50,357 nucleotides of DNA from the NCBI GenBank assembly GCA_937936785.1, contig CALDDQ010000016.1:1-50357 (forward strand), given 5' to 3'. A program made the position numbers and the translations under genes. Source of the DNA: an uncultured Endomicrobiia bacterium (GTDB lineage Bacteria > Elusimicrobiota > Endomicrobiia > DTEH01). Under the pieces are notes generated by a model. The model had not been told where the DNA came from and made no database searches. It was given only the letters and a program-made list of their open reading frames with translations. How positions within the stretch are numbered: the first letter of the stretch is position 1; each line of letters starts with the position of its first letter. Positions 27,087-32,964 of this stretch are shown here, in pieces.

Positions 27087-27917
27087 ATGTCTAACTTTAA
27101 AATTTTAGAAAAATATCTTTTAGCACCAAAAATACATTTTGTTTTAGTTCAAGCACCTCTAATTGCCAAAAAAGCGTTACCCGGACAGTTTGTAATGGTT
27201 CGTATAACAGAAAAAGGTGAACGAATACCTTTAACCATTGCAGACTATGACCGCGAAAAAGGAACTATTTCTATCGTTTTCCAAGAACTTGGTAAAACCA
27301 CCTGCGATTTTGCAAAAATGAATCCCGAAGAAGAATTGTTAGATTTGTTAGGTCCGCAAGGAAATCCAACAGAAATAAATCCAAAATTAATAGGTAAAAA
27401 TATTATTATAATTGGAGGTGGTGTTGGAGTTGCCCCTACATTTCCTCTGGTTAGAAGATTAAAAGAAGAAGGAGTAAAAGTTACTTCTATACTAGGCTTT
27501 AGATCAAAAGAATACATTTTTTGGGAAGATAGAATGAAAAATGTTTCTGACAAACTTATAATCACCACTAATGACGGTTCTTATGGCAAACACGGGGTTG
27601 TAACAGATGTTTTAAAAGAATTAATTGAATTAGGAGAAAACATTTCCCATGTATTTGCGATTGGTCCTACAATAATGATGAAATCTGTTTGTGAAACCAC
27701 AAAAATAAATAATATTCCAACAACTGTAAGTTTAAATGCGTTAATGGTTTGTGGAATGGGAATGTGTGGAGCATGCAGAGTTAATGTCAACGAAAAAAAT
27801 CAATTTACATGTATGGACGGACCAGATTTTGATGGGCATAAAGTAAATTTTGATGAACTTATGAAACGATTAGATACTTACAAAAAGGAAGAATGTAGCT
27901 GTAGTAAATATATTTAG
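27087..27917 (+). CDS. nfnA: NfnA-type ferredoxin/NADP oxidoreductase subunit
   Basis: The 276-residue protein is of the sulfide dehydrogenase/dihydroorotate dehydrogenase-electron-transfer type. It has an FAD domain (PGQFVMVRI then ERIPLTIADYD), an NAD domain (IIIGGGVGVAPTFPLVRRL) and a C-terminal [2Fe-2S] site MVCGMGMCGACRV with Cys222, 227, 230 and Cys242 (FTCMDGPDFDGH). NfnA pairs with NfnB to bifurcate electrons from NADPH to ferredoxin and NAD, or the reverse. The same fold serves SudB and PyrK. nfnB follows after 37 bases, supporting the Nfn assignment. A perfect 9-2-9 palindrome lies upstream. Confidence 0.88.
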   Translation: MSNFKILEKYLLAPKIHFVLVQAPLIAKKALPGQFVMVRITEKGERIPLTIADYDREKGTISIVFQELGKTTCDFAKMNPEEELLDLLGPQGNPTEINPKLIGKNIIIIGGGVGVAPTFPLVRRLKEEGVKVTSILGFRSKEYIFWEDRMKNVSDKLIITTNDGSYGKHGVVTDVLKELIELGENISHVFAIGPTIMMKSVCETTKINNIPTTVSLNALMVCGMGMCGACRVNVNEKNQFTCMDGPDFDGHKVNFDELMKRLDTYKKEECSCSKYI

Positions 27918-27954: not shown

Positions 27955-29343
27955 ATGATAGAAAAAAAAACTGTTCCTATGCGGGAACAACCAGTAGAAC
28001 AAAGAATAAAAAATTTTGACGAAGTTGCACTTGGATATTCTGAAGAGGAAGCTATAAAAGAATCTGAACGGTGCCTTCAATGTAATAAAAAACCTTGTGT
28101 TTCTGGATGTCCTGTAAATATAGAAATTCCGGAATTTATAAAATTTATTAGAGAAAGAAAATTTCAACAAGGAATTGATATAATTCATCAGACAGATTCG
28201 TTACCTGCAGTTACAGGAAGAGTTTGTCCTCAAGAAGATCAGTGTCAAGCAGTTTGTGTGTTAAAAAAATCTGGAGAACCAATTTCTATTGGCCGGTTGG
28301 AACGGTTTTTAGCAGATTGGGAACAAAAAAATAATAAAACAATAAAAAAACAAAATATAACCAAAAATTTGTCATCTAAAATTGCAATTATTGGTTCAGG
28401 ACCAGCAGGACTTGCTTGTGCAACAGATCTGGCTAAAATAGGATATGAAGTTACAGTTTTTGAAGGATATCATAAACTTGGTGGAGTATTGACTTATGGA
28501 ATCCCAGAATTTCGCCTACCAAAAGATATTGTAGAAAAAGAAATAAATCTGTTAAAAAACTTAGGTGTAAAATTTATGACTAACATTTTAATTGGTCGTG
28601 TATTAACTATAAAAGATTTATTTGAATTAGGTTTCAAAGCAATTTTTATTGGCGCTGGAGCTGGACTGCCAAAATTTATGGGTATACCAGGAGAAAATTT
28701 GAACGGGATCTATTCCGCAAACGAATACCTGACCAGAACAAATTTAATGAAAGCATATTTGTTTCCACAATACGATACTCCAATAAAAAAAGCTAAAAAT
28801 GTTTTAGTAATTGGTGGAGGAAATGTTGCAATGGATGCAGCAAGAACTGCTATACGGTTAGGAGCTAAAAATGTTTATTTGGCATACCGCCGTTCTGAAC
28901 AAGAAATGCCTGCTAGAGAAGAAGAAATTGTTCGTGCTAGAGAAGAAGGAGTAAAATTTATGTTGTTGACTGGAATAACAAAATATTTCGGCGATGAGAA
29001 CGGTTTTGTAAAACAAGCACAATGTATAAAAATGGACCTTAAAGAACCAGATTTTTCTGGTAGACGAAGTCCGGTACCAAAACAAGGATCTGAATTTATA
29101 TTAGATATTGACCAAGCGATTGTTGCTATTGGCACTACACCAAACCCAATTTTACAAAAAACCACTCCAGAACTAAAAACAAAACCTACTGGAGAGATTA
29201 TAACAAATGAATTTTGTATGACATCAATACCTGGAGTTTTTGCCGGAGGTGATATTGTAACAGGTTCTGCAACGGTTATAACAGCCATGGGTGCAGGACG
29301 AAAAGCTGCTTATTATATTGACAGATATCTTACAAATTTATAA
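27955..29343 (+). CDS. nfnB: NfnB / glutamate synthase small-subunit-type flavoprotein
   Basis: The 462-residue protein has the N-terminal double [4Fe-4S] region CLQCNKKPCVSGCPV (from Cys40) and GRVCPQEDQCQAVCV. Two Rossmann motifs follow, AIIGSGPAGLACATDLA and VLVIGGGNVAMDAARTAIRLGA, with the late GVFAGGDIVTGSATVITAMGAGR. It binds FAD and NADPH. With nfnA it fits NfnB, the b-FAD bifurcating subunit. GltD of glutamate synthase has the same architecture, and a glutamate-synthase-like gene follows, so it may serve both. The two roles cannot be separated from sequence. Confidence 0.88.
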   Translation: MIEKKTVPMREQPVEQRIKNFDEVALGYSEEEAIKESERCLQCNKKPCVSGCPVNIEIPEFIKFIRERKFQQGIDIIHQTDSLPAVTGRVCPQEDQCQAVCVLKKSGEPISIGRLERFLADWEQKNNKTIKKQNITKNLSSKIAIIGSGPAGLACATDLAKIGYEVTVFEGYHKLGGVLTYGIPEFRLPKDIVEKEINLLKNLGVKFMTNILIGRVLTIKDLFELGFKAIFIGAGAGLPKFMGIPGENLNGIYSANEYLTRTNLMKAYLFPQYDTPIKKAKNVLVIGGGNVAMDAARTAIRLGAKNVYLAYRRSEQEMPAREEEIVRAREEGVKFMLLTGITKYFGDENGFVKQAQCIKMDLKEPDFSGRRSPVPKQGSEFILDIDQAIVAIGTTPNPILQKTTPELKTKPTGEIITNEFCMTSIPGVFAGGDIVTGSATVITAMGAGRKAAYYIDRYLTNL

Positions 29344-29350
29344 AAAAGTT

Positions 29351-29405
29351 AATTCTCAAAGAAGAGAATTTGTGTTTATTTTTAATACAGAACAAAGACG
29401 TTCTG
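29351..29405 (+). promoter_or_regulatory. dual-hairpin ANTAR-type RNA target in the glutamate-synthase-like leader
   Basis: Hairpin P1 has stem AATTCTC/GAGAATT (29351-29357 with 29364-29370) and hexaloop AAAGAA. Hairpin P2 has stem CAGAAC/GTTCTG (29388-29393 with 29400-29405) and hexaloop AAAGAC. Both loops have A at position 1 and G at position 4, the known recognition signature of ANTAR RNA targets, and a 17-base linker separates them. The 3' arm of P2 can instead pair as CT(G)AAAAA (29403-29410) with TTTTTAG (29432-29438), which touches the AGGAGG ribosome site. That gives a plausible alternative OFF structure. The ANTAR protein gene is the next gene downstream. Confidence 0.75.
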
Positions 29406-29448
29406 AAAAAACAATGATGTGCAAAATTAAATTTTTAGGAGGAAAAAT

Positions 29449-31041
29449 ATGAACTTACGTCAACCTAATGCAAACGCTGCCAATGGGACTTTTAACAGGT
29501 CCCGCAATGTAGTACCTAGTTCCGGTATATGTACAACTTGCCTTGACGGTTGTCAAGGTGGGTGTGAACTTTGGCTTGCATCATTTCGTGGAAGAGAAGT
29601 AATATACCCAGGCCCTTTCGGAGAAACAACATCTGGAGCAGATAAAAATTATCCTGTAGACTATTCTCATCTAAACATTCAAGGATATGCTAAAGGAGCG
29701 AAAGGGCTTCCTAAAGGTGTTGAAGGAAATCCTGATACAGCAATGTTTCCAAAAGTTGATACTGAGACAGAATATGGTTGGTCAAAAAAAGTTAAAATGA
29801 AACTACCAATTTTTACCGGCGCACTCGGTTCTACTTATATTGCAAAAAAAAATTGGGAACATTTTGCAACAGGCGCTGCTATTTGTGGTATAACAATTGT
29901 TTGTGGTGAAAATGTTTGTGGTATAGATCCTAATCTTGAACTTAATAAAGATGGTAAAATAAAAAAATCTCCTGAGATGGACCGAAGAATTGAAACTTAC
30001 AAAAAATATCATCAAGATTATGGTGAAATTTTGGTTCAAATGAATGTTGAAGATACGCGGTTAGGTGTTGCAGAATATGTTTTAGAAAAACATAAACTTG
30101 ACACTATAGAACTCAAATGGGGCCAAGGTGCAAAATGTATCGGAGGAGAAATTAAAGTAAAAGATATCAATTATGCTAAAGAACTAAAAAAACGTGGTTA
30201 TATTGTAACCCCAGACCCAACATTGCCAGAAATTGAAGCTGCATATAAAGATGGTTCCATAAAAGAATTTGAGCGACATTCAAGATTAGGTTTCGTGGAC
30301 AAAAAATCTTTTTTGAAAGAAGTTGAACGTTTACGCAAATTAGGTTTTAAACGTATCACACTAAAAACAGGCGCATATTCAATGGTAGAGTTAGCCATGG
30401 CATTACGGTGGGGCGCAGAAGCAAAAATTGATTTGTTAACAATTGATGGTGCACCTGGTGGAACAGGCATGAGCCCATGGCCTATGATGAACGAATGGGG
30501 TATACCCACATTTTATTTAGAAGCATTGACATACGAATTTTGCGAAAAGTTGTCTAAGAAAAAAATCAGAGTTCCAGATATTGCAATCGCAGGAGGATTT
30601 TCTACTGAAGATGGTGTTTTTAAAGCTATTGCAATGGGAGCACCTTATGTAAAAGCTGTTTGTATGGGAAGAGCGTTAATGATACCTGGAATGGTTGGAA
30701 AAAACATTGATCAATGGATTAAAGAAGGTAATTTACCAAAAACTGTATCTAAGTATGGCTCCAAAGTGGAAGAAATTTTTGTTTCTTATGAAGAAGTTAA
30801 AAAAATATACGGTTCAGAAACAGATAAATTACCACTTGGTGCAATTGCAATGTTTACTTTTGCACAAAAGTTTAAAGTAGGGTTACAACAATTAATGGCT
30901 GGAAGCAGGAATTTTTCAATAAAAACCATTTCAAGAAACGATTTAATGAGTTTAACACGTGAAGCTGAAGAAGTTTCTAAAATAAAATATGTAATGGACG
31001 CATACAGAAATGAAGCAAACAAAATTTTAACTGAGAAATAA
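29449..31041 (+). CDS. glutamate synthase-like FMN TIM-barrel protein
   Basis: The 530-residue product matches the central FMN domain of glutamate synthase large subunits: KMKLPIFTGALGSTY, VQMNVEDTRLGVAEYV, ELKWGQGAKCIGGEI, LLTIDGAPGGTGMSP and IAIAGGFSTEDGVFKAIAMGAPYVKAVCMGRA. An N-terminal cysteine cluster CTTCLDGCQGGC may hold a metal or Fe-S centre. There is no glutaminase domain, and the canonical CHxNxCP cysteines of the [3Fe-4S] site are not found. Ammonia use or a related amination is therefore possible, and glutamate synthase activity is inferred. It lies after nfnAB with its own ANTAR-type leader and an AGGAGG ribosome site six bases before the ATG. Confidence 0.82.
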   Translation: MNLRQPNANAANGTFNRSRNVVPSSGICTTCLDGCQGGCELWLASFRGREVIYPGPFGETTSGADKNYPVDYSHLNIQGYAKGAKGLPKGVEGNPDTAMFPKVDTETEYGWSKKVKMKLPIFTGALGSTYIAKKNWEHFATGAAICGITIVCGENVCGIDPNLELNKDGKIKKSPEMDRRIETYKKYHQDYGEILVQMNVEDTRLGVAEYVLEKHKLDTIELKWGQGAKCIGGEIKVKDINYAKELKKRGYIVTPDPTLPEIEAAYKDGSIKEFERHSRLGFVDKKSFLKEVERLRKLGFKRITLKTGAYSMVELAMALRWGAEAKIDLLTIDGAPGGTGMSPWPMMNEWGIPTFYLEALTYEFCEKLSKKKIRVPDIAIAGGFSTEDGVFKAIAMGAPYVKAVCMGRALMIPGMVGKNIDQWIKEGNLPKTVSKYGSKVEEIFVSYEEVKKIYGSETDKLPLGAIAMFTFAQKFKVGLQQLMAGSRNFSIKTISRNDLMSLTREAEEVSKIKYVMDAYRNEANKILTEK

Positions 31042-31059: not shown

Positions 31060-31098
31060 GGGGGAAAAAGGACAAATTTTTTTTTGTTTTTTTCCCCC
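31060..31098. terminator. terminator between convergent glutamate-synthase-like and ANTAR genes
   Basis: GGGGGAAAAA (31060-31069) pairs with TTTTTCCCCC (31089-31098), and a T-run follows on the + strand. It stands between two convergent genes and may stop transcription from both sides. Confidence 0.8.
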
Positions 31099-31114: not shown

Positions 31115-31915
31115 TTATTTTTCTATATCGTAAGCAATAACTATTGCAGAAGCAATTTCTTTTAAAGGTTTTTTCGTGTCCATACTTTTTTTCTGTAAGA
31201 AACGATGAGCATCTTCTTCAGACATACCCTTAATTTTCATTATAATACCTTTTGCTCTTTCTACAAGTTTACGAGTTTCAAGTTCTTCTTTTGTCTTTGT
31301 AATTTCTTTAATCAAACCACTTGTACCAATAGCAACTGCAGACTGGTTTGCCATGGTTTGTAGTATATTTATTTCCAAAGGTGTAAATTCATGTTGTTGT
31401 GAAGTATAAACATTTAATACTCCTATAACTTTGTTTTGAAAAAACATAGGTACCGCTAACATTGACACTAAACCCATTTTTTTTGCAATATCAGGAAATG
31501 CATATTGAGAATCTTTTGTAACATCTAAGACAGATATTGGTCTAAAATCTTTCACTGCAAGACCACTAATACTTTGTCCAATTTTTATATTTGGTTTATT
31601 TTTATATTCTTCATCTAAACTTTGCGTAGCTTTAATTTGTAATTCTTGTTTTTGTTCATCAACAAGCATTATTGAACAAATTTTTGTATTTAACAAATCT
31701 GCAGTAATTTTTACAATTGAGTCTAATATTTCATCAACATTACCAAGTTTTTGTACTACAAATTGTGAAATTGTAGATATTTTATATATTTCATTAATTT
31801 TCTGATTTAACTGGTCTTGAAGATTTGCAATTTCTTTTTCCTTTTGTTCTAAAACTTTTAACAATGAACTTTTACCTTTTTTATTTTTTGTTAAACACTT
31901 ATTTTTTTTCTTCAT
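31115..31915 (-). CDS. GAF-ANTAR RNA-binding antitermination regulator
   Basis: The 266-residue protein has a basic, coiled-coil N-terminus (residues ~15-50). A GAF domain follows (about 55-195; LDSIVKITADLLNTKICSIMLVDE, GQSISGLAVKDFRPISVLDV, MLAVPMFFQNKVIGVLNVYTSQQHEF). The C-terminal ANTAR domain (about 205-262) reads RKLVERAKGIIMKIKGMSEEDAHRFLQKKSMDTKKPLKEIA. ANTAR domains bind paired hexaloop RNA hairpins and prevent transcription termination. GAF domains sense small molecules or partners. The only matching RNA target seen here is in the leader of the convergent glutamate-synthase-like gene. There is no sensor kinase next to it, so control is probably through the GAF ligand. Confidence 0.9.
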   Translation of the reverse strand: MKKKNKCLTKNKKGKSSLLKVLEQKEKEIANLQDQLNQKINEIYKISTISQFVVQKLGNVDEILDSIVKITADLLNTKICSIMLVDEQKQELQIKATQSLDEEYKNKPNIKIGQSISGLAVKDFRPISVLDVTKDSQYAFPDIAKKMGLVSMLAVPMFFQNKVIGVLNVYTSQQHEFTPLEINILQTMANQSAVAIGTSGLIKEITKTKEELETRKLVERAKGIIMKIKGMSEEDAHRFLQKKSMDTKKPLKEIASAIVIAYDIEK

Positions 31916-31996: not shown

Positions 31997-32964
31997 GTTA
32001 TTGTAAAGCCATAATGTCCTCTTAACTGTAAAGCAAAAAGTCATCTTATTTAGATATCTTTGCGATATGGGAATTATTGAACAAACTGGTCATCATAGAA
32101 AATCTGAGAGATTTGTCTGGTATAAGATGGAACATAATTTTTCCATAGGGATACGAACGTTTAGGAACGAATTTAGTTAGTTGATATGTTTTATTATCAA
32201 ACTGAAATTAGTTGTCATTTTTAACAGTTCTTTGCCATTTGAAACATAAAATATCGTATAAGTAGATATCAGCAGGTATTGGTTTAAATACTGATGGAGA
32301 ATGTCTTTAAAGAGGTTTAGATTTAGTAGTGATAGAATGAATATGATCAGTTCTCCATTTAGCGAGGAACTGATAAAGGAGCCTGTTAGCAAATTTAATA
32401 GTGCCAGAAATATCTTTTAGGATTTTGTGTATATGTCTTTTTAGTTCATTGAAAAACCGGTCCTGTAAGAAACCAAAGAATCTCTCAATTTTACCTTTTG
32501 ATTCTGGTTGAAATGGCATATGCCGAATTAAGACAACACCGAGTTGAGATAGTGCTGTTTCAAATTGTGTAGAGACATCTTGCTGGTCTTTATGATAAGT
32601 AACATGCAAAGGTTCATCAGAACAGATATATTCAAAGATAGAATCGTTGTTAGTATAAATTGTCTCAGGCAGGCCATATTTTTCAATTAAATATCTTGTG
32701 GCTTTCATATTGTTCAGGGTTAAGATGTGATGCCGAAAGATAACTTTTTTAGAATATGGCTTGTTCTGTGACATAACCATTTCATCCATGCTATAAGATT
32801 TGTCCCGATTTAACATGACAGAGGAAATAGTATAACTAAAATTACTCATAATATTAACAAAAAGAAAAGTTGTGAACGACTCTTATTATGACTACTACTT
32901 TCATCTTTCTACAGCGGACATCATAGATTTACAGTTACATGGGACATTTTAGCATTACAATAAC
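31997..32964 (-). mobile_element. decayed insertion sequence, copy B
   Basis: Imperfect ~35-base terminal inverted repeats bound it. The left begins GTTATTGTAAAGCC at 31997 and the right ends GGCATTACAATAAC-like at 32964 (AGCATTACAATAAC). The minus strand encodes the core of an ISNCY-like rve transposase from 32849 to 32307: KATRYLIEKYGLPETIYTN, QFETALSQLGVVLIRHMPFQPESKGKIERFFGFLQDRF, ANRLLYQFLAKWRTDHIHS. The expected catalytic Asp after YT is Asn. The N-terminal HTH part is missing. A TAA interrupts the C-terminal region (KNDN*FQFDNKTYQLTKFVPKRSYPYGK). It is dead, in the same orientation as copy A. Confidence 0.85.

Follow-up and report, generated by a model that had tools for sequence, protein, structure and literature searches.

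A candidate ANTAR target RNA before a glutamate-synthase-like gene, and an adjacent GAF-ANTAR gene, in an Endomicrobiia bacterium

The glutamate-synthase-like locus and its leader

The window, i.e. the whole stretch of DNA analyzed, comprises 50,357 nt of contig CALDDQ010000016.1 from an uncultured Endomicrobiia bacterium. Within it, a gene for a glutamate-synthase-like protein of the FMN-binding type (29449-31041, + strand, ATG at 29449, 530 aa; Pfam Glu_synthase, 1.7e-19) follows two genes on the same strand, which encode an nfnA-like FAD/NAD-binding subunit (27087-27917; NF004862, 9.3e-111) and an nfnB/gltA-like NADPH-dependent glutamate synthase subunit (27955-29343; TIGR01316 gltA, 597.6 bits, above the cut-off). 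Convergent with the glutamate-synthase-like gene, which we presume to be the target, and outside its operon lies the gene for a GAF-ANTAR protein (31115-31915, - strand, 266 aa; Pfam ANTAR, 3.8e-20; GAF, 1.9e-19), the presumed RNA-binding regulator. A palindrome, GGGGGAAAAA...TTTTTCCCCC (31060-31098), between these convergent genes is probably their shared terminator. Further along, an open frame at 32307-32849 (- strand) resembles part of an IS transposase/integrase core and has no Pfam match at 0.001.

Two hairpins occupy the + strand ahead of the glutamate-synthase-like gene. P1 (29351-29370, AATTCTC/AAAGAA/GAGAATT) starts 7 nt 3' of the nfnB/gltA-like stop codon and has a 7-bp stem; it is joined through a 17-nt linker (29371-29387) to P2 (29388-29405, CAGAAC/AAAGAC/GTTCTG), which has a 6-bp stem. 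Both hexaloops begin with A and have G as their fourth base (A1/G4) above a C-G closing pair, and the Shine-Dalgarno (SD) site AGGAGG (29437-29442) lies 31 nt past P2. Since ANTAR target RNAs are recognized by a pair of neighboring hairpins (each stem 3 bp or longer) that have A1/G4 hexaloops and are separated by a linker of variable length, the window element has the structure of an ANTAR target. A scan of both strands of the window gave P1/P2 as the sole strong pair of A1/G4 hexaloop hairpins (score 18, runner-up 12). When the whole window was shuffled 200 times with its dinucleotides preserved and both strands were scanned again, one shuffle reached 18. Both hairpins are present in the predicted fold of a 151-nt stretch, whose overall stability is unremarkable (z = -1.0). 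The window scan, the shuffles and the fold thus bear out the dual hairpin with A1/G4 hexaloops that the initial annotation had proposed.

A short upstream reading frame, MMCKIKFLGGKI (29413-29452), covers the SD site and lacks an SD of its own; its stop codon overlaps the ATG of the glutamate-synthase-like gene.

A promoter-like site (29318-29346, + strand) was found inside the end of the nfnB/gltA-like gene. It consists of a perfect TTGACA (29318-29323), 33 nt 5' of P1, followed by TATAAA (29339-29344, 15-nt spacer) or TAAAAA (29341-29346, 17-nt spacer), and would place the transcript start close to the 5' end of P1. Promoters scoring at least 10/12 at 2-15 nt ahead of a point occur at 1.4% of random window positions, and a perfect TTGACA is present 36-64 nt 5' of P1 in 7 of 11 other elements (G001, G002, G003, the gltB1 leader of the same genome, G034 C147, L141 and G021); a stricter promoter scan did not list the window TTGACA site. 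The glutamate-synthase-like mRNA probably begins with this element. Hence, because the promoter-like site puts the start at P1, the gene would have a leader of its own, apart from nfnAB. The element had been taken for part of a control unit for nfnAB; lying 3' of nfnAB and behind its own promoter-like site, it would act on the glutamate-synthase-like gene only.

The GAF-ANTAR protein and the related leaders

The GAF-ANTAR protein has the only ANTAR domain detected in the whole genome (1.56 Mb, 25 contigs, 96% complete). The Pfam profiles uphold the placing of a GAF-ANTAR gene beside the target. The RNA-contact residues of EutV are known from its structure (PMC8934654), and we found by ungapped alignment to EutV that the C-terminal ANTAR domain retains such residues: 5 of the 11 contact positions are identical (R142, K143, K149, E160 and M172) and two are conservatively replaced (K147 by R and R175 by K). 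The other four (Y164H, R168Q, N173D and R177P) are non-conservative or match residues of some ANTAR proteins only, the His at the Y164 position being shared with AmiR and the Asp at N173 with Rv1626 and NasR.

Conservation of both loops in related genomes had been suggested as a check. Orthologues of the glutamate-synthase-like gene in related genomes are 81-54% identical, and the orthologous genes of G001, G002, G003 and G011 (three genera) are likewise preceded by dual A1/G4 hexaloops at the corresponding position. In these four genomes, an ANTAR gene is directly upstream, and the hexaloops lie between it and the orthologue. With the window included, dual-hexaloop leaders of this gene are found in five Endomicrobiia genomes from four genera, as well as in an Omnitrophota MAG, in which the orthologue (L141) is preceded by a dual hexaloop plus a terminator; across these leaders, the stems are retained although their bases differ. 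Among the 80 named relatives retained, an ANTAR gene is directly upstream in 9 Omnitrophota and one Syntrophaceae MAG. The orthologue in G021 has no recognizable dual hexaloop, and the ANTAR gene of that genome is elsewhere. Hence, given the G021 exception, the linkage of gene and regulator is frequent, not universal.

An Rfam search of the window returned nothing at gathering scores, only local sub-threshold chance matches; hence, Rfam neither supports nor excludes an ANTAR target. Because variable linkers misaligned the hairpins, the linkers in our covariance alignments were set to a fixed length and padded with N, which penalizes other linker lengths. With the model trained without the window sequence (R3), the element came out as the top site of the window, but its score was weak (19.5 bits, E = 0.064) and P1 was misplaced, and its genome-wide E-value was 1.96; models R1 and R2 score it higher, with the window sequence in their training set. 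Stem pair counts were 94-96%, a partly circular measure since the aligned sequences were selected for possessing such stems. The models also found elements on which they had not been trained, before a type III glutamine synthetase gene (G021) and after glnK (G034), with gene names read from the sequences. Weak matches in the same genome (C4, C12 and C18) and in others (G001 C42, G021 C30, G038 and G028) lie mostly inside coding sequence, and we rejected them as chance.

Further elements in the genome and across the class

The genome of the window (G000) has glnA and two glutamate synthase systems, and no P-II (PF00543) or ammonium transporter (PF00909) gene was found in it (96% complete). On the - strand of L210 (G000:C13:22000-40000), a leader at L210:11884-11765 precedes the operon gltB1-gltB2-FeS-oxidoreductase-gltB3-glnA. 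It contains, in order, TTGACA-17-TAAAAT, P1 (ACAACAA AGAGTA TTGTTGT), P2 (AAAAC AAAGGC GTTTT) and a 20-bp terminator, with the 3' half of P2 forming part of the terminator's 5' strand. Its predicted free fold, with the terminator, is at -42.0 kcal/mol vs -24.7 kcal/mol with P1 and P2 enforced. Judged from its sequence, the gltB1 leader is a textbook ANTAR antitermination switch. The nitrogen link made in the initial annotation is thus supported by the comparative data and by this antiterminator in the same genome.

A second dual hexaloop, with no terminator, lies in the gltB3-glnA gap (L210:6401-6350, - strand). A promoter-like site, TTGTCA-16-TATAAT, overlaps the end of its P2. Between groL and nadE, a single hexaloop sits on a terminator (G000:C3:15906-15959); it is perhaps a further ANTAR target, or simply the groL terminator. 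The nadE gene also adjoins ANTAR genes in G011, G002 and G003.

Across the window, L210 and 40 further stretches, we searched for hairpins that carry a hexaloop and lend their 3' half to a terminator as its 5' strand, and did so for each of the 16 possible combinations of bases at loop positions 1 and 4. Loops with A1 and G4 gave 21 matches, 16 of them with C-G closing, and the other 15 classes gave 0-1 each with C-G closing. With gene names read from translated sequences, without profile searches, these 16 elements precede gltB1 (the same genome, G081 and G084), gdhA (G005), glnA (G092, two in tandem), amtB (G014, G093 and G047), a ferredoxin-like gene (G018) and the apparent REC-ANTAR gene itself (G056, G092, G016 and G093). 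In G014, three tandem hexaloop-plus-terminator units stand before the amtB-like gene (L097:18600-18900).

The window regulator and its target do not look like an isolated unit but like members of a broader regulon for nitrogen assimilation; of the complete control unit that had been proposed, the target beside a likely regulator stands. ANTAR genes were absent from all searched genomes of one genus with small genomes (g5), which looks like the endosymbiont genus Endomicrobiellum. Endomicrobiellum is reported to be without glutamine synthetase (PMC11257099), and the two absences would fit a joint loss of regulator and target.

Action of the leader and relation to known systems

From these sequence features, we consider it very probable that the window RNA serves as an ANTAR target for the adjacent GAF-ANTAR protein. 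A chance pair of hairpins in A+T-rich DNA, unrelated to ANTAR, would fit a motif that is short and low in information and that scored weakly with the covariance model from which it was left out; this explanation is highly improbable in view of the shuffle test, the position of the element, its recurrence before orthologues, the adjacency of the sole ANTAR gene and the antiterminator in the same genome. As an ANTAR target, the element would work as follows. Transcription would start near P1, from the promoter in the end of the preceding nfnB/gltA-like gene. The GAF-ANTAR protein, probably dimeric and active once its GAF domain senses nitrogen status, would bind the A1/G4 hexaloops of the leader; both the binding and the signal are inferred. 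It would thereby set expression of the glutamate-synthase-like gene together with that of the gltB1-glnA operon, acting by antitermination at gltB1. By analogy with that operon, the effect at the window gene would be activation.

Transcriptional control had also been suggested for the window element. By direct scan and by folding of the leader, we found no intrinsic terminator between P2 and the start codon, so the usual terminator switch is unsupported; the related leaders of the orthologous gene in four other Endomicrobiia genomes also gave none in the same scan, and this conserved terminator-less form indicates retention, not role. Hence, as the leader lacks a terminator, the effect would most likely be on translation initiation or mRNA fate, a reading to which we give about an even chance, and translation or mRNA-level effects are favored over antitermination at this leader. 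A classical switch as at gltB1, its terminator masked by A+T-rich DNA, is improbable: antitermination is the mode of other elements in the same genome and class, but the gap from P2 to the SD site is only 31 nt and holds no hairpin followed by a T run, the window leader folds at -15.9 kcal/mol against the -42.0 kcal/mol of the gltB1 leader, and the gltB1 terminator in the same genome is plainly visible.

In a more specific form of translational control, the P1 5' arm or the P2 3' arm would pair with the AGGAGG region, and ANTAR binding would free the SD site; the P2 pairing was part of the initial annotation. For certain lengths of folded transcript, pairing between the P1 5' arm and the SD region reaches a probability of 0.87; when P2 is blocked, the first three SD bases become less accessible (0.3 instead of about 0.7); and ANTAR RNAs acting on translation are reported for actinobacteria (PMC8164766). 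However, the arm-SD effect is gone once more coding or upstream sequence is folded. The P2 pairing is possible (-3.8 kcal/mol in a stretch without the P2 5' arm) but far weaker than P2 itself, and the duplex energies are at chance level, being equaled in 341 of 1000 shuffles for P1 and 371 of 1000 for P2. Translational elements are recognized by a motif that overlaps or sequesters the ribosome-binding site or start codon, which is not seen here, and we regard such a switch as doubtful. Listeria and Enterococcus have RNAs that sponge ANTAR proteins, and at this leader the bound protein might affect mRNA stability or Rho-dependent termination, or the leader might mainly sponge the protein from its other targets. 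These outcomes, somewhat unlikely when taken together, fit the finding that, in 5/5 Endomicrobiia genomes with hexaloop leaders at this gene, the dual hexaloop has no terminator, although the leader is C-poor, which is unfavorable for Rho loading.

ANTAR targets at glutamate synthase genes are described for Desulfotomaculum reducens, and at six nitrogen units for D. acetoxidans (Ramesh et al. 2012, PMC3369931). The Desulfotomaculum systems resemble the present one in having dual A1/G4 hexaloops before glutamate synthase and other ammonium-assimilation genes, encoded ANTAR proteins and a multi-target regulon; they differ in belonging to Firmicutes, whereas here the host is of the Endomicrobiia (Elusimicrobiota), the window leader has no terminator and the regulator is a GAF-ANTAR protein. 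The Enterococcus faecalis eut leaders likewise have dual A1/G4 hexaloops and the key ANTAR residues of EutV match (PMC3369931; structure, PMC8934654); in contrast, EutV is a REC-ANTAR response regulator, serves ethanolamine use and acts on leaders in which P2 excludes the terminator. The actinobacterial ANTAR RNAs acting on translation (Mehta and Ramesh 2021, PMC8164766) also have leaders that are mostly without a terminator, but about 37% of those motifs overlap the ribosome-binding site or AUG, unlike P2 of the window, which ends short of the SD site. The NasR/nasF leader of Klebsiella and the AmiR/amiE leader of Pseudomonas share the nitrogen genes and the ANTAR output domain, AmiR also the His noted above, and they differ in having other sensor domains and single-locus control.

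ANTAR control of nitrogen genes is known, and in Elusimicrobiota it is apparently unreported; our search of the open-access literature, which did not extend to the supplementary tables of PMC3369931, found no report of ANTAR RNAs in this phylum. We tentatively propose, as a speculative model, that in an Endomicrobiia lineage without detectable P-II/Amt genes one GAF-ANTAR protein may mainly control ammonium assimilation in two ways, by antitermination at gltB1-glnA and, at the glutamate-synthase-like leader (perhaps at glnA too), by a mode undescribed for ANTAR proteins that needs no terminator. Within one genome, a single regulator would face leaders with and without a terminator, which offers a natural comparison. 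The elements would extend ANTAR RNA regulons to Elusimicrobiota, with a coherent gene set of gltB, glnA, gdhA, amtB, perhaps nadE, and the ANTAR gene itself.
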